Part shown: piece after piece, positions 22,586 through 48,807 of the stretch
Position numbering within the stretch: position 1 is the stretch's first letter
Layout of the letters: each line of letters begins with the position of its first letter
IMG/VR virus record: IMGVR_UViG_3300009506_000085
Coordinates: 1-49,073 of that record
Strand: one strand, 5' to 3'
DNA length: 49,073 nucleotides
Source of the DNA: a virus
Made by a program: the position numbers and the translations under genes
The notes under the pieces: generated by a model
What the model was told of the DNA's origin: nothing
Databases searched by the model: none
The model's input: the letters and a program-made list of their open reading frames with translations, nothing else

Positions 22586-22832
22586 TTGGTTCTCCCATTA
22601 GTACGAACTCAGCATCTTCTGGTTTCTTTAGACCACACGCTCGGCACACGGGCGTCCCTTCTTCCAGTGTGGTTGGATGAAACCACATGCTCAGCTTGGT
22701 GCTTGTGTCCTTATGTTTGATGTTTCCGAACACACCCTTCTCTGTGAACCTGTCGATTACCTCCTCGTTTGTTGGTACTCCCAGGCAGAAATGGGTAACA
22801 TCTCCTTCTTGGTTCTTGAACCATTCAGTCAT
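22572..22832 (-). CDS. Truncated or divergent W-HxC-CxxC-P-E family member
   Basis: An 86-residue protein ending MWFHPTTLEEGTPVCRACGLKKPEDAEFVLMG. CRACGLKKPED matches the family's C-x-x-C-x4-P-E/D motif and MWFH the W/H segment, but the order is compressed and the terminal L-x-x-W is missing. It overlaps the 314-residue gene and abuts a clear family member. Function unknown. Confidence 0.55.
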   Translation of the reverse strand: MTEWFKNQEGDVTHFCLGVPTNEEVIDRFTEKGVFGNIKHKDTSTKLSMWFHPTTLEEGTPVCRACGLKKPEDAEFVLMGEPNDNR

Positions 22833-23074
22833 GCTCGCTCCCTTACCTCCCAGTTGTGCAGAATGTAGAGAGCCTCTATCTCTTCAGGAACGGGGTCTCG
22901 ACAATTACTGCACTTTGGAATGTGGTGTCCTTCTTTGTCGGTGAGATAACACCCACTGTTACATGGTTGATGCAACGGAAGTGATTTCAAATGACTTCCA
23001 ACCCCAGGCCTTGGTGTGACCAGAATCCAGTCATCAATCTCTAGTAGAACGGTCCTTCCTTCATACTTACTCAT
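22829..23074 (-). CDS. W-CxxC-P-E-HNW family member (dispersed)
   Basis: An 81-residue protein: LLEIDDWILVTPRPG, then LPLHQPCNSGC, then CSNCRDPVPEEIEALYILHNWEV at the C terminus. All elements of the tandem-cluster family are present. It overlaps the neighbours on both sides by 4-8 bases, next to a divergent member, so this is a local pair. Function unknown. Confidence 0.75.
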   Translation of the reverse strand: MSKYEGRTVLLEIDDWILVTPRPGVGSHLKSLPLHQPCNSGCYLTDKEGHHIPKCSNCRDPVPEEIEALYILHNWEVRERA

Positions 23075-24497
23075 TGGTCAGCTTGACCTCCACCTTCTTG
23101 CCCCAAGGCACGGACTGCCCTTCACCGTGCTCCTCAGGGTGCGCCCAGATCACAGGGTAGCTTGGCTTCTTACTTGGGAACGTAGTGAACAAATCAGTGA
23201 ACGCAATCACCATGCCTACCTTCTCAGTATGAAGACTGTCATTTACCTTATCGAACACATCAACATGCGATGTGCCACCCCGTGTCGCCTTGATCTTGTT
23301 GATGGTGTTCAGATCGTACTCCTCGATATGATAGCACTCCACATCATGGAAGTAAACCTTGAGGAACTTGCAGCCAGTCTCTCTCAAGATACCTGAACAC
23401 TCGGACACGAACTGAGTAAGCAGCTCATCACTGATGGACCCTGATGTGTCGATCATAATGATCGCACCGTTGGGTGTTCGTGTCCTTGATGGCAGCATCA
23501 TAGGTGAGCTGTGAGATCGTCTGCTTCTGCGTGCGAAGGAGTACCTACCCTTGAACACAGACGTAGCTTGCCTACGAATGTGCTCCTTCCATGTTACGCT
23601 GGGCTTTCGGATCTCAGCCAGGAACTCATCGGCGAAGGCGGGGTACTTCCCCTTGCCCTTTGATGCCAAGGCAGCGGCGATGACATACTGCTTGAACTTC
23701 TCAATGTCCTCGGCACTACCCGGCTCACCATGCATGTACCCTGAAGTGCAGCCTCGCTCACCTACTCCGTCGGTTCCGTCGGACTTCGGGCCACATTGGG
23801 AGCATGTCCCCCCAGGACCTTGACCATCGCCCTGTATGCTCTGTCCAGATCCCTGAGTTTCTGTGCCCTCATCACCTCCGCTTCCAGAACCTTTTTGATT
23901 CTCCATATCGCTTTCTTCTTTACTGCCACTGTCACCTCCGTCTTGTTGACCCGGCGGCTTGTGACCACAGTCACCATTTGGTGGTCCATGAGGACAGCCA
24001 CCGTAACTCTCAACTTCCTCCGGGTGCTTAAGCAGGTGGTAGTAAATCTGCTCCGTGGTATTGCCACGGTGCTTCTCCATCAGCTCAGGCGTAATGTTCT
24101 TCATACTGACTCGGGATTGCTTAAGCCCGGAGTCCACCAAGATCGTATCAACCTTGATGTCGGCGGCGATGTTCCATACCTTGTGGTTGCCACCATTGGG
24201 GAACCTCACGCTCGCACGTTGGACAAGGTGCATCACCTCATGGGCCAGCTCGAACATGACTTCCTCAACGTTAATCATGTCGTTGATCCAATCCGGGTGG
24301 TAGTATAGATTACCCAGGTGGTCAACGCAAGTCGTGCCAACTCCCGCTGTCCTTGATTCGTGCAACACCATCCGCATCACCAACTCACCGAAGAAAGGAA
24401 AGTGCATGAGCAACTGCATCCTCGCCTTGATGAGCCGATCCTTGGGATCTTTCCCCTTAATGCTCTTGAGTTGCTTACTGTCCGAATACTGCCTCAT
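23067..24497 (-). CDS. VWA-like metallopeptidase-type protein (DUF2201)
   Basis: A 476-residue protein. Residues 80-95 contain FELAHEVMHL, a HExxH zinc motif. After a low-complexity Gly/Ser/Asp/Gln linker (about 185-250), a C-terminal von Willebrand A-like domain shows MIDTSGSIS, a MIDAS motif. This layout matches DUF2201-type proteins that are encoded beside MoxR-like AAA ATPases, as here (24,863-25,999). Such pairs are thought to remodel or activate protein complexes by insertion of metal or conformational change; the phage target is unknown. Confidence 0.85.
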   Translation of the reverse strand: MRQYSDSKQLKSIKGKDPKDRLIKARMQLLMHFPFFGELVMRMVLHESRTAGVGTTCVDHLGNLYYHPDWINDMINVEEVMFELAHEVMHLVQRASVRFPNGGNHKVWNIAADIKVDTILVDSGLKQSRVSMKNITPELMEKHRGNTTEQIYYHLLKHPEEVESYGGCPHGPPNGDCGHKPPGQQDGGDSGSKEESDMENQKGSGSGGDEGTETQGSGQSIQGDGQGPGGTCSQCGPKSDGTDGVGERGCTSGYMHGEPGSAEDIEKFKQYVIAAALASKGKGKYPAFADEFLAEIRKPSVTWKEHIRRQATSVFKGRYSFARRSRRSHSSPMMLPSRTRTPNGAIIMIDTSGSISDELLTQFVSECSGILRETGCKFLKVYFHDVECYHIEEYDLNTINKIKATRGGTSHVDVFDKVNDSLHTEKVGMVIAFTDLFTTFPSKKPSYPVIWAHPEEHGEGQSVPWGKKVEVKLTNE

Positions 24498-24588: not shown

Positions 24589-24846
24589 TTACTTCTCCCA
24601 TTCAAGTAGTTTCAAGAACCCTTGCATGGTTTCGGGCGGTGGTTTTTCACATGCCAAGCACACTTTATAAAATACTCCTGTTGGTGTCCATTGTGGTCCT
24701 TCTTGCCATGAAAAAGCACCACGAGGACAGTAATGAATTGGTATGTATTCGGTGTGCATTATGTCAAGTGTAAGAGAACGGTATGTCCTTCGTAGGAGTC
24801 TCCATTCTCCGTCTTCTATTAGCGTACAAGTGCTTCCTATTTCCAT
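24589..24846 (-). CDS. W-HxC-CxxC-P-E-W family member (dispersed)
   Basis: An 85-residue protein: LIEDGEWRLLRRTYR, then PIHYCPRGAF, then CLACEKPPPETMQGFLKLLEWEK. It carries the complete family signature, with the ending closest to the GFLKLL-type members at 36,373-36,672 and 36,672-36,917. Placed between the MoxR-like and VWA-like genes, so it is co-transcribed with that pair. Function unknown. Confidence 0.8.
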   Translation of the reverse strand: MEIGSTCTLIEDGEWRLLRRTYRSLTLDIMHTEYIPIHYCPRGAFSWQEGPQWTPTGVFYKVCLACEKPPPETMQGFLKLLEWEK

Positions 24847-24862
24847 GATTTACCCATTGATG

Positions 24863-25999
24863 CTAGGCATCGGGGTTGGCGAGGTACGTACCCCACCTCT
24901 TGTACATCTCCTGAAACTCAGGAGTCTGTGCCGCCTTCACTCTGTCCTTCTCACTCAGCTTGTTGAAGGCGATGGAGGTTGCCATCTTGGCGATGAGCAG
25001 TCCGTACTCCGGCTCCATTTCCGGCCGCAGCACGTAGGTCAGAGCGTCAACCCAGTGCTTGTGGTACTTCGGCTGGTTGATGTAGAACTCCAGCGCCGAG
25101 ATGGTGGCATAGAGTACGTCGATCTCCCGCTTGTCAGGCACCCTTGCGTGCTTCGGATCGGCCACGATTTCCTCTGGTCTTACCAGACTGGTCGTGTTCT
25201 TGGCGAAGGTATTGAACTCCATCCCTGTACCTGCACCAATGCACCCAACGGCGGCAGGGTACAGCCATGAGCCCTGCACTCCACCACTCGGGTCGATCTT
25301 GAACATGGACTTACTCAGCAGTTCCCATGTTCTCGGGGTGGGAAACGCCTTCTCACTGGTCGAGGTCTTAACGATCTCATCGAACCGATTGAGTGCGTTA
25401 CCCTGCGTTCTGATGTACGCCGTGATGAGGGGGTGAATCTTCCCCACGTCAGTGGCCCAAGCGAGCCACGCATCCACGTCGGACTTGGCATAGTAGTGCT
25501 TCATCCGATTGGCCAGAGCCAGCGGCATCTCGAACGCAGCCGACTTGTCCTCGATCCGATTCCCTGCCCCGATGATGTAGACGTTATCACGGAGCGGCAG
25601 GTTACCGACTCGCTTCTCACCGAACACCTTGAAGCAGGCGGCTTGCGTCTGCTCGTGGCCGGTCACGATGTCATCGAAGAAGATGACCATTGGGCCTTGA
25701 TGTTCGGGCGGGGCGAACTCACTTGCGTTGTACGCCCACAGTGGCACCAGAATGTCCGTTGCCACGTTGACCCCGGCCTCATTGACATGAGGGTGAGGGA
25801 CACCACTAATATCAGTGGGCTCCGAACACCCAGCCAGGACCAGCACGATCTCGTGATCGTGGAAGGTCTGCTTGGTGGCCTCAGTCTTGCCGATACCCGG
25901 CGATCCCCAGATCATGCTCGGAATCTCGGGACCAAGCTGCCGAATGATCCGAAGGATGTCGGCCACGTTCTGTTCTGAAAGCTCCATGTCTCGTGCCAT
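24863..25999 (-). CDS. MoxR-type AAA+ ATPase
   Basis: A 378-residue ATPase. Walker A is GSPGIGKTEATKQ (about residue 32), Walker B is VIFFDDI, and IIGAGNR forms sensor 1. It follows the MoxR pattern of a short N terminus, AAA core and helical lid. Residues 276-374 resemble residues 45-143 of the Tat-signal protein at 29,870-30,475. It is encoded upstream of the VWA-like partner in one operon; the two probably act together on a protein substrate. GGAG precedes the ATG. Confidence 0.87.
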   Translation of the reverse strand: MARDMELSEQNVADILRIIRQLGPEIPSMIWGSPGIGKTEATKQTFHDHEIVLVLAGCSEPTDISGVPHPHVNEAGVNVATDILVPLWAYNASEFAPPEHQGPMVIFFDDIVTGHEQTQAACFKVFGEKRVGNLPLRDNVYIIGAGNRIEDKSAAFEMPLALANRMKHYYAKSDVDAWLAWATDVGKIHPLITAYIRTQGNALNRFDEIVKTSTSEKAFPTPRTWELLSKSMFKIDPSGGVQGSWLYPAAVGCIGAGTGMEFNTFAKNTTSLVRPEEIVADPKHARVPDKREIDVLYATISALEFYINQPKYHKHWVDALTYVLRPEMEPEYGLLIAKMATSIAFNKLSEKDRVKAAQTPEFQEMYKRWGTYLANPDA

Positions 26000-26002
26000 T
26001 TG

Positions 26003-27109
26003 TTACTTCTCCTCTGTTGCGAAGTCATTGGACCCATCGCTACCTGCGAAGGTCACGTTCTGCAACTGCCGTGCCATGTCCAAGGCAAAGGCATACGCCT
26101 CGGCCTTCTGCTGTGCCCCGCTGCCTTCAAGCAAGCGGTGCAGCTTGGCATCATACTCGTTGGGTCGTACCTTTGACACTTTGGTCGGGCTGATCTTGTC
26201 AAGGTACTCTACCACGGCGAAGTACGCACCAAGCATGGTGTTCTTGGTTGAGGGCAACTGCTGAGCAGGGCCATTGTTGTAGATGGTTTCGATCTCAGCC
26301 CGGATATGCTCCGCTCGTTGCGGTTTCTTCTCCGGATCAGGGAACAGCGACTCGATGAACAGATTGAACTGTGCTCTGCTCAGTCTGACTGAACGGAGGA
26401 GCCGGAACGATTCCTCCATCTCATCGAAGTATCGGTTCACCTTGGCCAAGCTGAGCTTGGCTCGCCTCACCCTGTCCTCCACCCTCTTGCTGTGGCGGAA
26501 CCGGATGCGGTTCTCGTCTTTGAAGGTGAGCACCGTGCCGTTGGTCTTGCGGAGCGGGGAGAACACAACCTCCAGCCCACGGCTGCTATCATGCGACGTG
26601 GTGACGTAGAAGTAGCACTCAACCTCATCACCTCCGCTCATCATCACGGTTTTCTTCGCCTTCATCACGAGGAACGCCTGCTCTCCGTTGCCTGTCACGC
26701 CAGCGGTGACATACGAGGCATCGCCGGAGTCCACCAATTCCTCAGTGAACGCCAGCACGTCACGGTACTGCACGATGCCTCGCCCTCTGCCCACCGTACC
26801 AAGGTAACGATGGTCATCATCACGAATGACGGCCACCTTATCAGGAACGTAGACTTCTTTGGTCTTTGGAGGGCCAGTGACCTGGCTGGTGTTTAGGTTG
26901 CCACTGAGGTTCACCCCCCTGAGTAGATCAGCGGCGGTCACATTAGGACTCACAGGGGGCGGACTCACCACCTCTTGTTTCGGTGTCGGTTCCTCGATCT
27001 TGTAGTAAGTATCCACCTTGATGGCATCGAAGTCCATCCCGGCCTGCTTGGCCATCTCTTCCGCCGTGTCGGCGTCGATCTCAGGTAGATAGTCGAAGAT
27101 ACTTTGCAT
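26003..27109 (-). CDS. Hypothetical protein beside the MoxR ATPase
   Basis: A 368-residue protein from ATG 27,109 (GGAG six bases upstream). The N-terminal 70 residues are acidic and Pro-rich and look disordered; the middle is beta-rich and the C-terminal half helical with many Arg and Lys (KRVEDRVRRAKLSLAKV). No motif I can name. Its operon position upstream of the MoxR/VWA pair suggests a shared role or substrate, which is inference. Confidence 0.7.
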   Translation of the reverse strand: MQSIFDYLPEIDADTAEEMAKQAGMDFDAIKVDTYYKIEEPTPKQEVVSPPPVSPNVTAADLLRGVNLSGNLNTSQVTGPPKTKEVYVPDKVAVIRDDDHRYLGTVGRGRGIVQYRDVLAFTEELVDSGDASYVTAGVTGNGEQAFLVMKAKKTVMMSGGDEVECYFYVTTSHDSSRGLEVVFSPLRKTNGTVLTFKDENRIRFRHSKRVEDRVRRAKLSLAKVNRYFDEMEESFRLLRSVRLSRAQFNLFIESLFPDPEKKPQRAEHIRAEIETIYNNGPAQQLPSTKNTMLGAYFAVVEYLDKISPTKVSKVRPNEYDAKLHRLLEGSGAQQKAEAYAFALDMARQLQNVTFAGSDGSNDFATEEK

Positions 27110-27110
27110 G

Positions 27111-27479
27111 TTACACTCCCACATCAGAGAGAAGAATGAAATGAGTCCCTTCCTTAAGGGACTCTGGCATCTTCTCTATTGGTTTCTCACAGTCACACAC
27201 AGGGCGCTCGCTTTCTTTGTAGTCACCTCGTTTGGCACGAACTAAAGTACAAAGGTTATTTGTAGAGCGGCCACACCAATATACTGTGTGTTCTCTCCAC
27301 GTATCATCTTCGATCACCTTCAGTGTAGTTTCCTGAGGTGTCGGACCCTCATGAATCTCACACACCACCACCACTGACCCCGGGCTAAGGCTCAGCCCTT
27401 CAGACAGTACCGATGGAGCGTAGATGTATTGCTTTCCTATCTTTGCTTTCTTCGGTCGTTGGAGCAACGCCAGATTCAT
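27111..27479 (-). CDS. Hypothetical protein, possible distant zinc-family member
   Basis: A 122-residue protein from ATG 27,479 (GGGAG seven bases upstream). It has a W-C pair (VYWCGRST), then CDCEKPIEKMPESLKEGTHFILL near the end. The C-x-C ... P-E-S arrangement recalls the repeated zinc family but lacks its spacing, so membership is uncertain. It is the first gene after the promoter at 27,508-27,536. Function unknown. Confidence 0.6.
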   Translation of the reverse strand: MNLALLQRPKKAKIGKQYIYAPSVLSEGLSLSPGSVVVVCEIHEGPTPQETTLKVIEDDTWREHTVYWCGRSTNNLCTLVRAKRGDYKESERPVCDCEKPIEKMPESLKEGTHFILLSDVGV

Positions 27480-27507
27480 AATGGATCTCCCATCTGCGAC
27501 AGCCACC

Positions 27508-27536
27508 ATCATAGCACACCCGGCGGCGGCTGTCAA
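27508..27536 (-). promoter_or_regulatory. Early leftward promoter TTGACA-17-TATGAT
   Basis: Minus strand: TTGACA at 27,531-27,536, a 17-base GC-rich spacer, TATGAT at 27,508-27,513. The surrounding 47 bp (27,497-27,543) are identical to 29,811-29,857. A 7-bp inverted repeat GACAGCC/GGCTGTC brackets the spacer. It drives the operon containing the MoxR/VWA and sigma factor genes. Confidence 0.8.
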
Positions 27537-29261: not shown

Positions 29262-29488
29262 GGCTTTACCTCTTTGTTGTTCACCTTGGCGAGCACACTG
29301 GTGATGTACTCATTACAGTGAGGGTGGTGGTCGTTAATACAAGTGCTGCTCTCAGTCCTGCTATCAAAGCAAGCCTTCACCAGTCGCAGCGCACCGTACA
29401 AGACATCACGCTCTGCCTTTACTTCTTCATGCTCAGCGTAAATGTCTCGTACCAGATCATGCCACTGATCGTTACTCGGGTGTGACAC
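29258..29488 (-). CDS. Small hypothetical protein (76 aa)
   Basis: A 76-residue protein with a helical N-terminal half and a Cys/His-containing middle segment (CINDHHPHCNEY) that could bind a metal ion. It overlaps the lipoprotein-like gene by 17 bases. Function unknown. Confidence 0.6.
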   Translation of the reverse strand: MSHPSNDQWHDLVRDIYAEHEEVKAERDVLYGALRLVKACFDSRTESSTCINDHHPHCNEYITSVLAKVNNKEVKP

Positions 29489-29795
29489 TAAGACCTCCTT
29501 GCACTTTCAGACAGTAGTATCCAGCCTGGTTGGTTCCGAAGTGAAATGTGATTCGATCACCCTCCACCGTGGTTACGGTTAAGGTTGAAGGGGCACCAAA
29601 TCCTTGTCGAAACTCAGGGTCTGCTGTCTCTGAGTCGATGTGGAACACGGGGAGATCTTCGTACCCGGGGTTGCGAGCCTTGCACTCATACACTCCTGGC
29701 TCTATCGTCACCTCACTACCAAGGTTGGCGGTGCAAGCAACGAACACACCCATGATACCAAACAAAACAACCAAGTTCTTTCCAAAGTTAGACAC
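29472..29795 (-). CDS. Putative small lipoprotein
   Basis: A 107-residue protein with an N-terminal signal: basic start, hydrophobic LVVLFGIMGVFVAC with a lipobox-like VFVAC, then a beta-rich exported domain with two further Cys residues. It would be a lipid-anchored periplasmic protein, perhaps in superinfection exclusion or envelope modification, but that is inference. It is the first gene after the promoter at 29,822-29,850. Confidence 0.65.
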   Translation of the reverse strand: MSNFGKNLVVLFGIMGVFVACTANLGSEVTIEPGVYECKARNPGYEDLPVFHIDSETADPEFRQGFGAPSTLTVTTVEGDRITFHFGTNQAGYYCLKVQGGLSVTPE

Positions 29796-29821
29796 AGTAG
29801 TCCTCCCGATCGACAGCCACC

Positions 29822-29850
29822 ATCATAGCACACCCGGCGGCGGCTGTCAA
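29822..29850 (-). promoter_or_regulatory. Early leftward promoter, perfect duplicate of that at 27.5 kb
   Basis: Minus strand: TTGACA at 29,845-29,850, 17-base spacer, TATGAT at 29,822-29,827, within a 47-bp block (29,811-29,857) identical to 27,497-27,543. It precedes the lipoprotein-like gene at 29,795. Confidence 0.8.
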
Positions 29851-29869: not shown

Positions 29870-30475
29870 TCATTTCTCTTCTCCTTCACACCCACAACTT
29901 GAGCAGAATCCAACTCTGTTGTATGTTGGATCGTGGCACCAACACACTTGTTGTTGGCATCCGTTATTGGTAGCAACTACCTCGTGCAGATTCTCCTTGT
30001 CTTTCAACATCTCGTAATGGCGAAGGGTAGCGTTCCCACCGCCTGTAAAAATGTCACCGTAACGGTCACACATATGGCGAAACTCCGGTCGAGTTATCGC
30101 CGCCACTCTTGCATCCTCCGGCAGCTTGGTGAACAACTGAACGGTCGCTGACTTGGCAAGGAACAAACCAATGGCAGCGGGTTGTCGCAGCCCCCATCGT
30201 ATCAAGGCCAAAGTGTCGTCGATGTTTGGTTCTTTCTCTGTGATCCACCTCTCACACAAGTGGAGTGTCAACATACCAGCCATGCCAGTAATGTCGTCGT
30301 TCATATCAAACACCGGCCCGATCGTTGGATCAGCGATGATGTCCTTTGGATCAAGGACTTGATCGCTAACTTGCCGGTCGACGGGCAGAGGTGTAGCCTG
30401 AGGCGAGGATGGTATGGCAACAACGCCACCCGCTACGCCGATTGCTTTCAAGAAAGTACGCCTATCCATAGACAT
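29870..30475 (-). CDS. Tat-signal protein resembling the MoxR C-terminal region
   Basis: A 201-residue protein. Residues 4-10 read DRRTFLK, followed by the hydrophobic AIGVAGGVVAIP and an A-x-A-like cleavage region (PQATP): a textbook twin-arginine signal. Residues 45-143 align with the C-terminal region of the phage's MoxR ATPase (shared IADP, LLIAK/LFLAK, LP/LS..D.RV.A...PEF..M..R.G). The C terminus is Cys-rich (CQQQVCWCH ... CSSCGC). It seems to be an exported, folded, metal-binding protein. I know of no such phage protein. GGAG precedes the ATG. Confidence 0.7.
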   Translation of the reverse strand: MSMDRRTFLKAIGVAGGVVAIPSSPQATPLPVDRQVSDQVLDPKDIIADPTIGPVFDMNDDITGMAGMLTLHLCERWITEKEPNIDDTLALIRWGLRQPAAIGLFLAKSATVQLFTKLPEDARVAAITRPEFRHMCDRYGDIFTGGGNATLRHYEMLKDKENLHEVVATNNGCQQQVCWCHDPTYNRVGFCSSCGCEGEEK

Positions 30476-32881: not shown

Positions 32882-33232
32882 CTAGCGAATCAGCTTGGCT
32901 CGCTTCTCCTCAGCAAACTGACGGAGCCTCGGGCTGAATCTGTCACGTGCAATCACTCGATCCAGAAACGCAAGCCGAGACTTGACCGCGTAAGCATCGT
33001 CCTCGTCGAGGTCGTGGTTCAACTTGAGGGTGCGCTCGATCTTCCCCTTCTCTCGCTCCCGCTTCTCGATCAGGTGGGTGTGGATCCTAGCCAATGCTCG
33101 CCACATTCCGCCAAGCTCCCGCCCTTCTCGATCCTCGTTCAAGATCATTTCGTAAACGTCGTCCAGCCTGGCCTCGCAAGTCTCGATGACCGCACGAGAG
33201 TAAGCCAGTCCTGCCCTATTTCTGTTTCTCAT
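32882..33232 (-). CDS. Helical charged protein (116 aa)
   Basis: A 116-residue protein from ATG 33,232 (GGGAGAG upstream), almost entirely helical with repeated Arg/Glu/Lys and no Cys-pair motif. Its ATG overlaps the upstream family gene's stop. Possibly a coiled-coil or DNA-binding protein. Family unknown. Confidence 0.65.
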   Translation of the reverse strand: MRNRNRAGLAYSRAVIETCEARLDDVYEMILNEDREGRELGGMWRALARIHTHLIEKREREKGKIERTLKLNHDLDEDDAYAVKSRLAFLDRVIARDRFSPRLRQFAEEKRAKLIR

Positions 33233-33444
33233 CACACTCTCCCTTCGTACAAGATCAGTAGTGCCTGGATCTCTTCGGGGACACGTTCCCCACAAGCGAT
33301 ACAGGAAGCGGGGTTCTCGGTGGTAAGCCAAGCGATCCTGGTTACACTTTTGCAGAGCGAATGTGTGGCGAAGGTAATACGCCCAATGCCAGGGTCGTTT
33401 ACTTCTTTGATAAACCAGGACCCTAGTCTAAACAGTATCTTCAT
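33232..33444 (-). CDS. HxC-like CxxC-P-E family member (dispersed)
   Basis: A 70-residue protein from ATG 33,444 (GGGAGG three bases upstream): FRLGSWFIKEVND, then FATHSLCKS, then CIACGERVPEEIQALLILYEGRV. It shares the W, H/C and CxxC-x4-P-E elements with the tandem cluster; the terminal tryptophan is replaced by Tyr/Glu-Gly. Function unknown. Confidence 0.75.
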   Translation of the reverse strand: MKILFRLGSWFIKEVNDPGIGRITFATHSLCKSVTRIAWLTTENPASCIACGERVPEEIQALLILYEGRV

Positions 33445-33721
33445 CTTCCTCCCTCTCGTACCAAACAGTCGGCCATACCTTAGTATGAACCGGCACCTGC
33501 TCCACAGTATACCCCAAGGACACTCGGAACCTCCGAGTCTCGGGCTCAGGAGCCTCGACCTCAGGAACCAAGACCTCCGGCTGGTACCCACACTCCCAAG
33601 GTGCGGGCTGTCCTCGGCTCAAGGGCTTCCCGCACTTAAAACAAACGAATTTCTCGACCACTCTCGCCTTAGCCTCAGCCCAGCAAGAGTCACACTCCCA
33701 GACAGACAATCCCTTACACAT
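33428..33721 (-). CDS. Zinc-ribbon protein with acidic tail (97 aa)
   Basis: A 97-residue protein from ATG 33,721 (GGAGGAG upstream). CDSC and CFKC form a likely zinc ribbon, followed by an acidic, Pro-rich linker and a Trp-containing strand region. It overlaps the next family gene by 17 bases. Function unknown. Confidence 0.65.
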   Translation of the reverse strand: MCKGLSVWECDSCWAEAKARVVEKFVCFKCGKPLSRGQPAPWECGYQPEVLVPEVEAPEPETRRFRVSLGYTVEQVPVHTKVWPTVWYEREEDEDTV

Positions 33722-35109: not shown

Positions 35110-35436
35110 TTAATCGTTTAACGCCAACAAATTCCAGTTGTGGAGGATCCATAGGGTCCGGACGCTCTCAGGGGCCCTTTGGCCGCAGTAATTACAGGGC
35201 ACTTTGGTCCCAATCGTGCCGAATCGGTGGGTCGTGTAGGTGTAAGAGTCGTATGATTTCCGTGACTTAGGGCAAACGTGGAATACAAGGCTGTCCCAAG
35301 GCGAATTAGGGTACTGAAAACACCATTCTTGGGGAATCAGGTACCAATCTCCCTCTTTATGCAGGCAGTGGCGGATGTCGGAATCGTAAACTTGTTGTGA
35401 TTTAACGTCTGAAGTAGCGTCTGAAGTAGCTGCCAT
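35110..35436 (-). CDS. Tandem zinc-family member 11 (last of the cluster)
   Basis: A 108-residue protein: CLHKEGDWYLIPQEWC, then LVFHVCPKS, then CNYCGQRAPESVRTLWILHNWN. Complete family signature. Its start region encodes ATSDATSD from a 12-bp tandem repeat (35,406-35,429) that the overlapping upstream gene reads as YFRRYFRR. The ATG has GGGGGATGAAAG upstream and lies inside the upstream gene. Function unknown. Confidence 0.85.
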   Translation of the reverse strand: MAATSDATSDVKSQQVYDSDIRHCLHKEGDWYLIPQEWCFQYPNSPWDSLVFHVCPKSRKSYDSYTYTTHRFGTIGTKVPCNYCGQRAPESVRTLWILHNWNLLALND

Positions 35437-35698
35437 CTTTCATCCCCCAGGCTACGGGTTCGAACTCTTTGAGTTGGTCCCAATTGTACAGTTTGTACAG
35501 TACCACGAAGCTCTCAGGGACCTTCGCCCCACAATAACAACACTCCCCGATGATGGCGTTGTCCCTGGGGAACCAGTTTCCGTACCGAGATGAAATGGAC
35601 TTTTCACAACTGTCATGACAGGCCCAAACGTACCCCCCTACAAGCGAAGTCCGTTCCAGGGACCAGCCATCTTCAGTCAGGAGAGTGCTGTCACTCAT
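35402..35698 (-). CDS. Tandem zinc-family member 10
   Basis: A 98-residue protein: LLTEDGWSLERTS, then WACHDSCEK, then CCYCGAKVPESFVVLYKLYNWDQL, with an extra basic tail (SYFRRYFRR). In this copy the H-x-C motif reads C-H-D-S-C. It overlaps the upstream member by 8 bases and the downstream one by 35. Function unknown. Confidence 0.85.
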   Translation of the reverse strand: MSDSTLLTEDGWSLERTSLVGGYVWACHDSCEKSISSRYGNWFPRDNAIIGECCYCGAKVPESFVVLYKLYNWDQLKEFEPVAWGMKDGSYFRRYFRR

Positions 35699-36008
35699 TG
35701 AGGGCGTCCCAGTTGTGGAGGAGCCATAGCCCCTGGATTTCCTCAGGGCACACGTCTCCGCACTGAGGGCAGGGAAGATTCAATGTTTTCACTACCAGGC
35801 GCCACATCCCGTTCCAGCTATCGATCTTTATCGGGCACTCGTGCCAGATCACGCTACTGAGGTAGTTCATGAGGAACAACCCATTCCCAACGGACTTCCT
35901 ATCCAGCAGGTACCAGTCTCCTTCCCGGTGCAAGACTGTGGCATATAGGTCCTCGATGGGTTTGACTTTCCAAGTGATTTGATGTAGTTTGAATTTAGAT
36001 ACGGTCAT
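35691..36008 (-). CDS. Tandem zinc-family member 9
   Basis: A 105-residue protein from ATG 36,008: VLHREGDWYLLDRK, then VIWHECPIK, then CPQCGDVCPEEIQGLWLLHNWDAL. Nearly ideal family consensus. The region upstream of 36,008 overlaps the end of the preceding gene in another frame, so the short start is chosen. Function unknown. Confidence 0.85.
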   Translation of the reverse strand: MTVSKFKLHQITWKVKPIEDLYATVLHREGDWYLLDRKSVGNGLFLMNYLSSVIWHECPIKIDSWNGMWRLVVKTLNLPCPQCGDVCPEEIQGLWLLHNWDALNE

Positions 36009-36016
36009 TGTTGGTC

Positions 36017-36376
36017 TTATTTGTAGAGTCTGGTCTCTTCTGAGATGTTGTCGAAGTTGTGGATTAGGTACGTTCCTAGAATGCTCTCCGGAGGCTTCCT
36101 GCCACACATCTCACAACGCCACGCAGGCTTTACTAGACGGCCCCTTTGGTCCCAGCGGGTGTACCCTACTGAATACAGCACAAACTGAAGCTCAGTTGCG
36201 TTGGTACTGGTTGGGACCCAGACCGTGACTTCTTCTTTGTTGGGGTTGCACTGGTGCCAGAAAGACGATCCTTCGGGCTCTTTCCATAGTGACCACCGCC
36301 CCCGCTTCATGAGGAGGTGGGGCGAAGCGTAGTCGTCTGGCTCATCAGGGCGTACGGGTACGGTTGTCGTTTTCAT
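36017..36376 (-). CDS. Tandem zinc-family member 8
   Basis: A 119-residue protein from ATG 36,376 (GTGGGAAAG upstream): LLMKRGRWSLWKEPEG, then FWHQCNPN, a longer middle segment, then CEMCGRKPPESILGTYLIHNFDN. Phe replaces the last Trp of the family. It overlaps the upstream member by four bases. Function unknown. Confidence 0.85.
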   Translation of the reverse strand: MKTTTVPVRPDEPDDYASPHLLMKRGRWSLWKEPEGSSFWHQCNPNKEEVTVWVPTSTNATELQFVLYSVGYTRWDQRGRLVKPAWRCEMCGRKPPESILGTYLIHNFDNISEETRLYK

Positions 36377-36672
36377 CTTTCCCACCTTAGTAGCTTGAGG
36401 AAGCCTTCCAGCTCCTTGGGGGCTGGGTGGTGGCAGCCCAGACACCTCCCCGCCTCTTCCCACATCTCATGGAAAATCTCCAGCTTGGATTCTCCGTGGC
36501 AGTAGTGCCCGATCTTATACAACCCGCGGATCTCGGTGTGGGTCCAGTCTACAGTCCAGTCCCAGACGATTACCCACTCCCCATCCCGAAACACCACCGT
36601 ACCAAACTTCATATTGTTTTCTTTGTTCATTTCAACCAACTTATTAGCAAGCGTGGTAGCCGTATGAGACAT
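36373..36672 (-). CDS. Tandem zinc-family member 7
   Basis: A 99-residue protein from ATG 36,672 (GGAGAGGTG upstream): VVFRDGEWVIVWDW, then IGHYCHGES, then CLGCHHPAPKELEGFLKLLRWER at the very end. The ending GFLKLL.W resembles the dispersed members at 13,988 and 24,589. Function unknown. Confidence 0.85.
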   Translation of the reverse strand: MSHTATTLANKLVEMNKENNMKFGTVVFRDGEWVIVWDWTVDWTHTEIRGLYKIGHYCHGESKLEIFHEMWEEAGRCLGCHHPAPKELEGFLKLLRWER

Positions 36673-36917
36673 CACCTCTCCCATTCGATCAGCGTAAGGA
36701 ACCCCACCAGGCTATCTGGAGGCACATCCCCACAGAAGCAGCACGCATCGTTATCCGTGTACCGGGGCTCTGGGTCCAGGCGTTCGCAGTTGTGCTGGAG
36801 GCCGTGGGTACCCCAGGGGTCCTTGACCACATGCCACCTCGGGTCTTCGGGGGCCTTGAACACGACCTCCCAGGATTCATAGTTGCTGTGCTGGAGTTTG
36901 CGGAGGGAAGGGTGCAT
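36672..36917 (-). CDS. Tandem zinc-family member 6
   Basis: An 81-residue protein from ATG 36,917, whose start overlaps the upstream stop (TAATG). PEDPRWHVVKDPWG, then LQHNCERLD, then CCFCGDVPPDSLVGFLTLIEWER. The shortest tandem member. The much longer frame to 37,094 runs over the upstream gene and is rejected. Function unknown. Confidence 0.85.
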   Translation of the reverse strand: MHPSLRKLQHSNYESWEVVFKAPEDPRWHVVKDPWGTHGLQHNCERLDPEPRYTDNDACCFCGDVPPDSLVGFLTLIEWER

Positions 36918-37249
36918 TACTTCAACGCGTCTTCTGCGATCCCGAACAAACAGTTCAGCTCTGGGAGGTCTTTTGTGTACGTCTCGATGTTGATGGAGTC
37001 CCAGTTGTGGAGCTTCCAGGCTGCGCTGATCTCGTCCGGGCACACCTGCTTGCACTTCCAGCAGGTGATAGGGTTGCAGGTGATCTCGCGCCACGTGATG
37101 AACCGGCTCACCGTGAACCTCGCCGCTATGGGGTTACAACAGTGGTAAATCCACGAATCGAAGTTCTGTGTGCCGTTTATCCGGAACAGCAGCCATTGTT
37201 TGTCGGCCATCAGCACATCCTCTGGCTCCATGCCAACTCCTAGCTTCAT
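36917..37249 (-). CDS. Tandem zinc-family member 5
   Basis: A 110-residue protein from ATG 37,249 (GGGAGAGG upstream; ATG 37,285, which overlaps the upstream stop, is an alternative). MADKQWLLFRINGTQ, then WIYHCCNPI, then CWKCKQVCPDEISAAWKLHNWDS and a 27-residue acidic tail. The Cys motif is the best match to the dispersed member at 10,836-11,108. Function unknown. Confidence 0.85.
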   Translation of the reverse strand: MKLGVGMEPEDVLMADKQWLLFRINGTQNFDSWIYHCCNPIAARFTVSRFITWREITCNPITCWKCKQVCPDEISAAWKLHNWDSINIETYTKDLPELNCLFGIAEDALK

Positions 37250-37281
37250 TGCCTCTCCCACGACTTGCATCTCGAATCCAA

Positions 37282-37545
37282 TCATCGATCCCAATTGACC
37301 AGCTTCTGGAAGCCAATCAGCTCCTCAGGGATGGGTTCACTACAGGCCGAGCACCTTTTGTCCCTGATACCGGTGAGCCCAACTATGATTCTCCACTCTT
37401 CTCCTTGACAGCAGTGACCAATTGCTGCGAATCGTCGTGGTGTCGGTGGGCTTAGCTGGTAGTCCACGAACAACACCCAGTCCCCCACGCGGAGGAGTTC
37501 TTTTCCCACATCACCTTCCCAGGGGTTCAGGCTCAGGTCAGGCAT
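37282..37545 (-). CDS. Tandem zinc-family member 4
   Basis: An 87-residue protein: LLRVGDWVLFVDYQ, then AIGHCCQGE, then CSACSEPIPEELIGFQKLVNWDR. GGGAGG lies five bases before the ATG. Its TGA overlaps the alternative ATG of the next gene. Function unknown. Confidence 0.85.
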   Translation of the reverse strand: MPDLSLNPWEGDVGKELLRVGDWVLFVDYQLSPPTPRRFAAIGHCCQGEEWRIIVGLTGIRDKRCSACSEPIPEELIGFQKLVNWDR

Positions 37546-37862
37546 TGTTCCTCCCAGTCTTGTGATAACGTATCAAAGTTATGAAGGAGCCACTGTTGGA
37601 CTATGTCTTCTGGGGGAGGCACGTCACACAGCGTACAGGCTGTCTCCATGACATGTATAGAATGCCAATACCCTAATGAGTCGTACGGTGCCCCCATAGG
37701 ACTACGCAGCTCCGGGGTCCATTCAGGGCATTTGTGTACGATGATACTATTGCGTCCTACGTAAGAGAACCAAGGATCTGCGTGATACGTAGGCACAATG
37801 AACCACTCTTTGGTCCGGTCGGTTGCCACGGCCTTGGAAATATCTGTGAGGTCTTCCATCAT
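37533..37862 (-). CDS. Tandem zinc-family member 3
   Basis: A 109-residue protein: TDRTKEWFIVPTYHAD, then IIVHKCPEW, then CTLCDVPPPEDIVQQWLLHNFDTL plus a short tail. The ATG overlaps the upstream TGA. Function unknown. Confidence 0.85.
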   Translation of the reverse strand: MMEDLTDISKAVATDRTKEWFIVPTYHADPWFSYVGRNSIIVHKCPEWTPELRSPMGAPYDSLGYWHSIHVMETACTLCDVPPPEDIVQQWLLHNFDTLSQDWEEQCLT

Positions 37863-38314
37863 ACGATAATCGGAGTCGGTACAGGAGGTGTCATTATGAC
37901 CTTATGGCTCCTCTGTAGGGCATCCCAGTTGTGCAGCTTCCAGAGGGCTATGATCTCAGGGGGCACGGTCATACAGCAGTAGTGGCAGACCCCATGATTG
38001 ACCATCGTATAAACATCTGGTGATATTTTAACATGAGCCGACGGGCAGTAATGAGCTACCCAAGAGCCATCTTCTGGGAACTCAAGCACTCTTTCGATCC
38101 ACCATCCATCTTCTTCAAAGACACGTTCGGGTCGTACTTTTTGTGCGAGTACCTGATCTGCTGTAGTCGTAGCGAACTTATCAGTAGACTTTCGGTAAAT
38201 CGGTGCCTTACCATCAAATAAATGACACCTCCTCGAACCATTCACCGGATCATAGATCCGTGCACATCGCGAACAATCACAGGAATTGTTGGGAGAGATT
38301 AGCTGCTGACTCAT
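37859..38314 (-). CDS. Tandem zinc-family member 2 with extra N-terminal Cys domain
   Basis: A 151-residue protein from ATG 38,314 (GGAGGTGTGG upstream). The first 60 residues add a Cys-containing segment (CDCSRCARIYD ... RRCHLFDG). The family domain follows: FEEDGWWIERVLEF, WVAHYCPSA, CHYCCMTVPPEIIALWKLHNWDAL, then a Pro-rich tail. The largest member of the cluster; a second metal site is possible. Function unknown. Confidence 0.85.
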   Translation of the reverse strand: MSQQLISPNNSCDCSRCARIYDPVNGSRRCHLFDGKAPIYRKSTDKFATTTADQVLAQKVRPERVFEEDGWWIERVLEFPEDGSWVAHYCPSAHVKISPDVYTMVNHGVCHYCCMTVPPEIIALWKLHNWDALQRSHKVIMTPPVPTPIIV

Positions 38315-38679
38315 TCCACACCTCCGTGCTGTTGGACCCACTCCCAGTTGTGCAGCTTCCACAACCCACGAATTTCGTCAGGAGCTTGCGAATCACAATA
38401 TGAGCATCTCCCAGAGCGCGCGTCAACGGCGTTGTTGTACAAGCGCATCCTATCATATTCATTCCGACACAGGTGGTACAGGATGGACTTTTCTTTCTTA
38501 TACTTGTAGAGACTCCACAACCCTTCTTTGTGAAGAAGAGTGCCAAACTCTGTGTCTTCTTCTATATTCCACATACTCATGGCTCCGTGAATCGGTGACT
38601 GAAGGTTCTGCATCTGGGAAACGAAGTCAACTACGTACCTCCGTAGGAGCATGTCTCCCAGTGTATTGAAGGTAACCAC
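38311..38679 (-). CDS. Tandem zinc-family member 1
   Basis: A 122-residue protein from GTG 38,679, overlapping the upstream TAG; ATG 38,652 with GGGAG close by is an alternative start. LLHKEGLWSLYKYKK, then ILYHLCRNE, then CSYCDSQAPDEIRGLWKLHNWEW. First complete family copy in the tandem run. Function unknown. Confidence 0.83.
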   Translation of the reverse strand: MVTFNTLGDMLLRRYVVDFVSQMQNLQSPIHGAMSMWNIEEDTEFGTLLHKEGLWSLYKYKKEKSILYHLCRNEYDRMRLYNNAVDARSGRCSYCDSQAPDEIRGLWKLHNWEWVQQHGGVE

Positions 38680-38867
38680 TACTTCAAGGTAGTGACGCCT
38701 TTCTTAAGGCGACACCCCTCCTTGCATTGGAACATGATGCTTTTCTTTCCGAACAGCTTGAAGGGTGTCATCACGATGTCGTGGTCAAAGCAGTAGTGCT
38801 TCCGTTCCGGCCCCGCCGGGCCAGGGAGAAACATCTTTTTGGTCGTGTTCTTGTTTTTCTTCGCCAT
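38679..38867 (-). CDS. Small basic protein with Cys/His residues (62 aa)
   Basis: A 62-residue protein from ATG 38,867 (GAGGTG upstream). Lys-rich N terminus, then HYCFDHDIV and FQCKEGCRL, which could form a four-ligand metal site. It lacks the family's W and P-E motifs. Cotranscribed at the head of the tandem cluster. Function unknown. Confidence 0.65.
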   Translation of the reverse strand: MAKKNKNTTKKMFLPGPAGPERKHYCFDHDIVMTPFKLFGKKSIMFQCKEGCRLKKGVTTLK

Positions 38868-46132: not shown

Positions 46133-46500
46133 TGGCTGACAAGAAGTTCATTCGCTCATCTAGATTCCGATCCATCTGCGAGGTTATCCGAGAAGCATAC
46201 TGGCTGACCAATGACCCCGAGGTGAGGAGCAGATTGGTCGAGGCTTCAAAGATGGCAAAGAAGATGGGAAATAAGCTAATTGAGTACAAGTTCGATAAGA
46301 AGTTTGAGGAGATCGATAGAAGAGAAGGGCTCGACGCGTATTACGGCATGATGGAATACAAAGAAGTAAAAGAGCACGGTGATGTCGCTGCGGAGCGTAA
46401 GGCTCAGTATCGTAAGGAGCTAGAGGAGGAGAAGAAGGCAGCACTCATGAAACTTGAAGAACATCCTGTAGATGTGGAGCCTAAGGAGTCTGATAGCTAA
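46132..46500 (+). CDS. Conserved small phage protein near terminase
   Basis: A 122-residue protein from ATG 46,132, overlapping the terminase stop. RFRSICEVIREAYWLTNDPEVRSRLVEASKMAKKM resembles a short helical protein found in several phage genomes (EVIKEVYW...DPEV...LVEA..MAK). The C terminus is Lys/Glu-rich. Function unknown. Confidence 0.7.
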   Translation: MADKKFIRSSRFRSICEVIREAYWLTNDPEVRSRLVEASKMAKKMGNKLIEYKFDKKFEEIDRREGLDAYYGMMEYKEVKEHGDVAAERKAQYRKELEEEKKAALMKLEEHPVDVEPKESDS

Positions 46501-47177
46501 TGATTTCTTTTCCTGAGTTCAATTTCGTATTTGTTGGGATTCCGAAGACAGGGAGCAGCTCTATGCAGGCTCGGCTGTTTCGATTAGGCACAGCAGATCC
46601 CAACTCGCAGGCTAGGCACGACATAGTCTTCTATCCGAACGCTCAACACTACACCCTCAAAGAATATGAACAGATCCTTGGAGAGGAGATCGAATCTCGA
46701 TTCAAGTTTGCTTTCGTTAGGAATCCGTGGGACAGATTGGTGTCTAGTTACACCCGGGAATGCACAAATTGGAGAAATAGATTCTTGTTTAGAGACGATC
46801 TATTCAATGTAAAGAAGTTTCAGAATTGGGTGCCTCACGTTTTGTTTCCTAATCGACGGGCTCCTAATCGACGATGTTCTAGATACCCAACAAGGCTCTC
46901 AATCCCTCAGCTCAGTATGATTATGCATGAGCGTATTGAGATGGATTTCATTGGACGATTTGAGAACATCGAATCTGATTTCGAAACGGTGCTTAATAGG
47001 ATAAACAGCATATACTCGCTTCCACCCCGCAAACATTGGAAGCTTCCGAAGATTAACATATCGCACGGCGCTACAGAACACTACAGTTTTTACTACAATG
47101 ATGAATTAGTTGATATGGTCCATGCAGTCTACAAGAGAGACATTGACTACTTCGGCTACGAGTTTGAAAGAGCCTAA
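46500..47177 (+). CDS. Sulfotransferase family protein
   Basis: A 225-residue protein. FVGIPKTGSSSMQARL (12-26) is the 5'-phosphosulfate loop and FVRNPWDRLVSSY (72-84) the 3'-phosphate loop (R74, S82/S83) of PAPS-dependent sulfotransferases. Typical length for bacterial Sulfotransfer_2 members. It lies in a run of glycan-modifying genes, so the acceptor could be a capsule, lipopolysaccharide or virion glycan. Starts overlapping the preceding gene by one base. Confidence 0.82.
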   Translation: MISFPEFNFVFVGIPKTGSSSMQARLFRLGTADPNSQARHDIVFYPNAQHYTLKEYEQILGEEIESRFKFAFVRNPWDRLVSSYTRECTNWRNRFLFRDDLFNVKKFQNWVPHVLFPNRRAPNRRCSRYPTRLSIPQLSMIMHERIEMDFIGRFENIESDFETVLNRINSIYSLPPRKHWKLPKINISHGATEHYSFYYNDELVDMVHAVYKRDIDYFGYEFERA

Positions 47178-47190
47178 AGGTAAAGGGACT

Positions 47191-47715
47191 ATGAAACTAC
47201 AAGTTGGGTGCGGTGAAGTCAAAGGAAGGTATAAGGATCCTGAGTGGATTAATCTCGATATGGTTAGGGCTTGTGATGGTGATGAGATAGACATTCTTGG
47301 TGACGGCACTCAGCTCCCGTTCAAGGATAACGTATTTGAGGAGGTAGTCGCCGTACATGTGCTGGAGCATGTGACACGAGATAAGGCACCTGTGATGCTA
47401 TCTGAGATTTATCGAGTGTTGAAACCCGGTGGCGTGGCCTATATCGAGGTTCCTGATTTCATGAAAGTCATAGCCCACTTGACTTATGCCTTCATGGAAG
47501 GGAATGAGGCTGCGATTCACATCTGGACTACCTCGGTGTATGGCAAGAATGAGAAACCGGGGATGGCCCACTATAACGGTTTCTATGCAATGAAGCTCTT
47601 CCTCTTGTTTAGGAACGCCGGATTTCGGGGTATCGAAAACCTACAGGGTGAGGAAAACATGATCTCTCGTCACTATCTCTGCGAGCCTGTGCTGTTGATG
47701 AAGGGAACAAAATGA
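47191..47715 (+). CDS. Class I SAM methyltransferase (Methyltransf_11 type)
   Basis: A 174-residue protein from ATG 47,191 (AAAGGTAAAGGG upstream). LQVGCGEVKGRY is SAM motif I, DGTQLPFKDNVFEEVVAVHVLEHV is motif II/III, and RVLKPGGVAYIEVPDF is the post-motif. This group often methylates sugars or polysaccharide ends. Placed between a sulfotransferase and a second methyltransferase. Confidence 0.85.
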   Translation: MKLQVGCGEVKGRYKDPEWINLDMVRACDGDEIDILGDGTQLPFKDNVFEEVVAVHVLEHVTRDKAPVMLSEIYRVLKPGGVAYIEVPDFMKVIAHLTYAFMEGNEAAIHIWTTSVYGKNEKPGMAHYNGFYAMKLFLLFRNAGFRGIENLQGEENMISRHYLCEPVLLMKGTK

Positions 47716-48212
47716 GTGAATACGAGATCGACGACGGCCTGTATGAGTACATCCGCAAGACCCTCCCGGAGGGCAGCACCATTTTGGAGCTGGGCAGCGG
47801 TGCAGGGACCGAGCGGCTCGCCAAACACTACAAGATGTATTCGGTAGAGCACGATAAGGCGTGGATGGACAAGTACAAGTCTACGTACTTCTACACTCCG
47901 CTGGCGTGGCACAAGCCATTGAAGAACCACAAGGGTGATCGGTGGTACGACGCCAATATCCTAAAGTCCCACCTAAAGGGCCTGAAGTACGACCTCCTGC
48001 TCATTGATGGCCCGCCGCAGTACAGGGCCGGGTTCGTCAAGTATTTCAGTTTGTTTGATCCGAAAGCCATCATGGTGTTTGATGATCTTCAGCGTGGCAA
48101 GGAAGAGAAGATCGTAAAGAGCATCGCAACCAAGCTGTTGGTGCCGTACGTCGTGTATGGTGCCGGGAGCAAGAAGCTGTTTGGAGTAGTCAATGATCCG
48201 TGTACGAAATGA
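47712..48212 (+). CDS. Second SAM-dependent methyltransferase-like protein
   Basis: A 166-residue protein overlapping the first methyltransferase gene by four bases. TILELGSGAGTERLAKHY is the SAM motif I, and YDLLLIDGPPQYRAGFVKYF with IMVFDDLQR matches a Rossmann fold of glycan-modifying methyltransferases. The catalytic specificity is not clear. Its last 20 bases overlap the NodB-like gene. Confidence 0.75.
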   Translation: MSEYEIDDGLYEYIRKTLPEGSTILELGSGAGTERLAKHYKMYSVEHDKAWMDKYKSTYFYTPLAWHKPLKNHKGDRWYDANILKSHLKGLKYDLLLIDGPPQYRAGFVKYFSLFDPKAIMVFDDLQRGKEEKIVKSIATKLLVPYVVYGAGSKKLFGVVNDPCTK

Positions 48213-48807
48213 TGATGTCCTGATGTGGGGCACTCCTGTGTATTGGAAGGATCCGTTTGCGCGCTTCAAGGAGGTGCATGAGGCTATTCAGCGGGTTGAT
48301 TACACTATGGCAGTTAAGTACCACAGGGTATTGCACGTTCCGGCTATCCTAACCACGGAGATTCAGGAATTCCCAGAGTGCATTGAGTATATCGGTGAGT
48401 GCACAGAGAAGGGAGAGATGCGCCCTCAGCTTCATGGAGAGCGCCATATCGATTATGGAAGCCTCTCCTATGAGGAGATACTGGAGAGCCTGAAGCGGGC
48501 TAAAGGGTGGATGGAGAACAATCTTGGAGTAACACCAACTATCTGGTACACCCCGTGGGGTGCTGGAGAGGCTCCCGGGCAGGAGTACATGTGGAAGGCG
48601 GCTGGGAAGGCAGGGCTCAGGATAGTCACGTGCTCTGATGTCACAAAGCTTCGCGGACGAAATGGCCTCTACCAGAAACTGGGTGTGGAGAAGAAGAACC
48701 CCCTTGAATACTTGGTGGGAAAAGAGATCTTTACTCACTGGTACGAGAATGATGGTCGATTGGAACAGGTCCTGGCTGCACTCAAAGCCGGGAAATGGGA
48801 GGAGTAA
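48193..48807 (+). CDS. NodB-like polysaccharide deacetylase
   Basis: A 204-residue protein. MIRVRNDDV carries the Asp pair (D7, D8), HGERHIDY the H-x3-H zinc motif (H81, H85) and YTPWGAG the R/P-W motif 3 region of the NodB deacetylase family. Enzymes of this family remove acetyl groups from cell-surface or capsular polysaccharides. It is short but complete in motif order. Likely to act on host glycans or on the virion, which is inference. Confidence 0.72.
   Translation: MIRVRNDDVLMWGTPVYWKDPFARFKEVHEAIQRVDYTMAVKYHRVLHVPAILTTEIQEFPECIEYIGECTEKGEMRPQLHGERHIDYGSLSYEEILESLKRAKGWMENNLGVTPTIWYTPWGAGEAPGQEYMWKAAGKAGLRIVTCSDVTKLRGRNGLYQKLGVEKKNPLEYLVGKEIFTHWYENDGRLEQVLAALKAGKWEE

Follow-up and report, generated by a model that had tools for sequence, protein, structure and literature searches.

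The locus raises the question of why a virus should carry a gene that places an apparent export signal in front of a piece of an ATPase. We analyzed an IMG/VR virus record over its full length (49,073 bases; hereafter, the window), in which the gene in question, here called T, starts with ATG, has a GGAG ribosome site close upstream and is read in the frame that ranks best among the six by coding score, though the score is modest. T consists of three parts, its body is homologous to the C terminus of a MoxR-type ATPase encoded in the same window, and it is rare. A preliminary description of T had proposed the same three parts, and the residue ranges that it gave were correct to within a few residues. 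The features are listed in Table 1.

Table 1. Features of gene T, its surroundings and the ATPase-VWA cluster (window coordinates).
Feature	Position	Strand	Remarks
Gene T	29870..30475	(-)	Tat-type signal, MoxR C-terminal-extension module and Cys tail; 201 aa
Twin-arginine signal, T residues 1-28, MSMDRRTFLKAIGVAGGVVAIPSSPQAT	30392..30475	(-)	TIGR01409 above cut-off; unique among 15,182 ORFs
Helical module, T residues 40-143	30047..30358	(-)	Homologous to ATPase residues ~272-374
Cys-rich tail, T residues 173-201	29873..29959	(-)	C-x4-C-x-C-H-x9-C-x2-C-x-C
Promoter-like site TTGACA-17-TATGAT in inverted repeat GACAGCC...GGCTGTC	29812..29850	(-)	Directly downstream of T, before the neighbour gene
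Neighbour gene, small putative exported protein/lipoprotein (GVFVAC)	29472..29795	(-)	Window only, no related locus
DUF2201 metallopeptidase-like and VWA protein, presumed ATPase partner	23067..24497	(-)	DTSGS MIDAS motif
MoxR/phrog_1297-type ATPase	24863..25999	(-)	phrog_1297 E 2e-57; Walker A GSPGIGKT; sensor 2 TPRTWE
ATPase C-terminal extension, relative of the T module	24866-25198	(-)	
DUF932/TIGR03299 protein, next in the ATPase-VWA cluster	26003..27124	(-)	

The similarity of T to the C terminus of the MoxR-like ATPase, claimed in the preliminary description, was evident in several searches. BLASTP aligned T residues 37-140 with residues 269-370 of the window ATPase (E 1e-8, 31% over 106 aa). 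When five ATPase C-termini of the clade, without that of the window, were combined into a profile, it retrieved T at E 2.6e-8 (residues 39-142), and the real score of T was 36.0 bits versus a maximum of 7.0 bits among 5,000 shuffles. When T was used as a phmmer query against 15,182 ORFs (the window and 80 phage loci), T itself and the six ATPases of the clade, and nothing else, were detected at E < 1. Further, positions 261-354 of phrog_1297 aligned with T residues 36-144 on the same diagonal (E 0.28). T was missed by a profile made from 57 distant phage ATPases and was reached only by the near-clade one.

The models of the two proteins were then compared. The helices of T (residues 43-48, 61-80, 85-97, 100-117, 120-127 and 130-143) corresponded one to one to those of the ATPase (275-280, 293-307, 310-323, 330-347, 350-357 and 360-374), and the helix or non-helix state agreed at 100 of 109 aligned positions, an agreement that is partly built in, because the input alignment of the T model held C-termini of MoxR-type ATPases. 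The homology of T therefore rests on the sequence statistics. The block-mean pLDDT of T residues 31-143 was 75-95, and the mean pLDDT of the ATPase model was 88.5. A fold search with the T model yielded no significant match among PDB structures and viral models; the weak top viral matches, unnamed proteins of 351-378 aa and an entry named 'ATPase, dynein-related', are consistent with the homology and prove nothing.

T resembles phage MoxR-type ATPases of the phrog_1297 type in that its body and their C-terminal extension are homologous, but it lacks the AAA+ core, the Walker A motif (no G-x4-GK[ST]) and the lid, has no AAA family match, and adds the Tat signal and the Cys tail. The extension of the ATPases has a single invariant residue, a Glu (E331 of the window ATPase) that all 56 aligned sequences share; the corresponding residue of T is Ala101. 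The absence of Walker A and the replacement of the invariant Glu suggest that T diverged from the role of its parent.

The shared part had previously been called a lid domain, an identity that was not upheld. Sensor 2 (TPRTWE) occupies residues 221-226 of the ATPase, and the structures of NorQ (Z 14.4, rmsd 4.4, 219 aligned) and CbbQ2 (Z 14.2, rmsd 4.0, 228 aligned) cover the ATPase model only over about residues 5-273, whereas the sharing with T starts at about residue 269. The shared part is therefore a C-terminal extension that follows the lid, not the AAA+ lid itself. NorQ-NorD and CbbQ-CbbO are, like the genes of the phage, pairs of a MoxR AAA+ protein and a VWA protein, and their AAA+ and lid portions match the ATPase model. 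However, their chains end where the phage extension starts (~273), and an exported copy of their C terminus was not seen in the present analysis. MoxR-VWA pairs such as NorQD remodel their targets and insert metal into clients, with the VWA partner placed on the ring's C-terminal face (PMC13036017, PMC9976466). ATPases of the MoxR type are common in phages: that of the window matched 753 phage records. We found nothing in the literature on the role of MoxR-type ATPases in phages, and alignment of the ATPase with genome contigs, as a search for the host, gave no match.

The N terminus of T, MSMDRRTFLKAIGVAGGVVAIPSSPQATPLP, bore out the Tat pattern that had been claimed for it. The DRRTFLK motif at residues 4-10 forms the n-region (S/T-R-R-x-F-L-K type) and is accompanied by a short, uncharged and moderately hydrophobic h-region, AIGVAGGVVAIP, which is rich in G, A and V (mean Kyte-Doolittle value 2.0). 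TIGR01409 scored 20.8 bits on T, above its curated cut-off of 16.7, and PF10518 scored 21.1 bits, slightly below its cut-off of 22.7. A strict pattern that asks for RRxF[LI]K and a hydrophobic 11-mer free of charges was found in one of the 15,182 ORFs, namely T. In these respects T resembles the Tat-signal proteins of both families; it differs from them in that it is phage-borne, that its body fits no known Tat substrate family in the libraries used and that its c-region, SSPQATPLP, offers PQA or IPS as conceivable cleavage sites but no clean AxA. When 20 whole records were searched with TIGR01409, the window and one other phage were positive; none of the 16 related phage records was, and within its clade only the window is positive. 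The other positive phage record (L090, G007:113947-114036) has the signal above the cut-off in an open frame of 125 aa. An AAA ATPase of Stenotrophomonas phage Philippe, which is annotated with a Tat note, was set aside, its N terminus having no RR motif.

The Cys cluster reported at the C terminus of T is made up of six cysteines (C173, C178, C180, C191, C194 and C196), accompanied by H181. The tail had no match in the family libraries searched and was predicted to be disordered (pLDDT under 50). The CxxCH motif of c-type cytochromes is absent from T, which has C-x-C-H and C-x2-C-x-C instead; HiPIP-like and cytochrome-like readings were rejected, as the spacing does not fit. Comparison of the tail with the small CxxC proteins of the window revealed no kinship. 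These small proteins form a family of their own (CxxC...VPEE..L..NW), with about 15 paralogues on the (-) strand of the window (22829-23074, 24589-24846, 33232-33591, 35110-36107, 36020-38703 and others); the window and five related loci together contain 45 members, and a scan of the other phage loci found none.

Our preferred reading, to which we assign a probability of about 55%, is that T is an accessory phage protein that Tat exports in the form of a folded helical domain and that has its site of action in the envelope. A clade-specific MoxR-type ATPase would have supplied a copy of its C-terminal extension, to which a twin-arginine signal and the six-Cys tail were joined. Tat transports folded, often cofactor-loaded proteins. 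The helical module of T would fold in the cytoplasm after translation, and the Tat machinery of the host would move the folded protein across the inner membrane. Because there is no clean AxA site, T may stay anchored through an uncleaved signal. The Cys tail would bind metal or form disulphides, and T would act in the host envelope; as to its role there we can only guess, for example, at a block of superinfection or a change in the redox or cell-wall state of the envelope. The single T sequence, the lack of a clean signal-peptidase site, the disordered tail and the modest codon score count against this reading. The main limit is that T is the sole sequence of its kind known.

The main rival is a cytoplasmic T that modulates the phage's own ATPase-VWA machine, the copied extension competing with that of the ATPase for the VWA partner or a target. 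The Cys tail would then be a zinc site, which six Cys and one His would suit in the reducing cytoplasm, and the RR start would be coincidental or a membrane anchor. The ATPase from which the module derives does adjoin a VWA gene. However, a complete RRxFLK signal that scores over a curated cut-off lies at the extreme N terminus, as in no other of the ORFs searched, and the module is without the invariant Glu of the extension; we therefore regard a cytoplasmic competitor as rather unlikely.

In a tree of 57 C-termini, T joined the clade ATPases (support 96/87) but lay outside the six members, and its branch was very long, at 2.95 changes per site. This position and the branch length suggest that the copy either predates the radiation of the clade or evolves fast. 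The earlier proposal of a duplicated ATPase domain stands in part: a copy of a C-terminal MoxR piece has been combined with a Tat-type signal and a Cys tail, the window's own ATPase gene being no more than a candidate source. The same branch length, the modest coding score and the lack of a relative in other records are also what would be expected if T were a non-functional or decaying fusion, in which a second ATPase gene, reduced to a remnant without the AAA+ core, had acquired the N-terminal piece of a Tat protein from a host. We consider such decay quite improbable, because 201 codons remain open behind a ribosome site, the right frame has the best coding score, the module is full-length with every helix kept, and a remnant would hardly have gained a Cys tail.

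With T as the query, no relative was detected in viral contigs, phages, plasmids, genome contigs, PDB sequences or PADLOC. In the 16 related phage records, two of which are ~119 kb, the only match was the ATPase itself; many of these records are fragments, and the absence of T is certain just for the regions that they contain. In the closest relative (L003), the ATPase is 93% identical and the flanks of the T slot are kept. The genes in the slot itself include one for a multiheme c-type cytochrome (L003:2455-3222, (+)) with four CxxCH motifs and a Sec-like signal, on which Cytochrom_c3_2 and Cytochrome_C7 both scored over their cut-offs. This cytochrome was not found in the phage collection, the other viral contigs or any other record searched. 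Thus, the T slot is accessory and variable, given that L003 has a cytochrome with a Sec-like signal there and that the neighbour of T in the window looks exported too. Further, the 39-base promoter-like element beside T has an identical second copy at 27498-27536 (-); the two elements are possibly promoters with operators.

T could also be a Tat substrate that docks, via its copied extension, on the MoxR-VWA machine of the phage, has its Cys tail loaded with metal there and is then exported to the envelope. T unites a Tat signal, of the kind that serves folded and often cofactor-loaded proteins, with a piece of a MoxR-type ATPase, and metal insertion into clients is known for pairs such as NorQD (PMC13036017, PMC9976466). 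However, this reading presupposes contacts made by the extension itself and metal insertion by the phage pair, and the relatives retain the ATPase without T; we consider this course of events very improbable.

If T acts in the envelope, as we prefer, a part of a machine of the cell interior has apparently been given a new use, as a protein destined for the host envelope. If the export is true, T is an unusual case of a phage protein sent folded through the Tat pathway of its host. As a free-standing and apparently exported copy, T is a natural single-domain probe of the binding targets of the extension. We found no described example of its architecture in the literature, which is weak evidence, as subscription papers were mostly outside the coverage.

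Two further observations concern other parts of the window. The frame at 487-3042 (-) encodes a DNA polymerase A and carries, at its N terminus, a domain of the uracil-DNA-glycosylase superfamily. After the terminase, a sulfotransferase (phrog_3347), methyltransferase-like proteins and a polysaccharide-deacetylase domain are encoded in a row (46500-48807, (+)).
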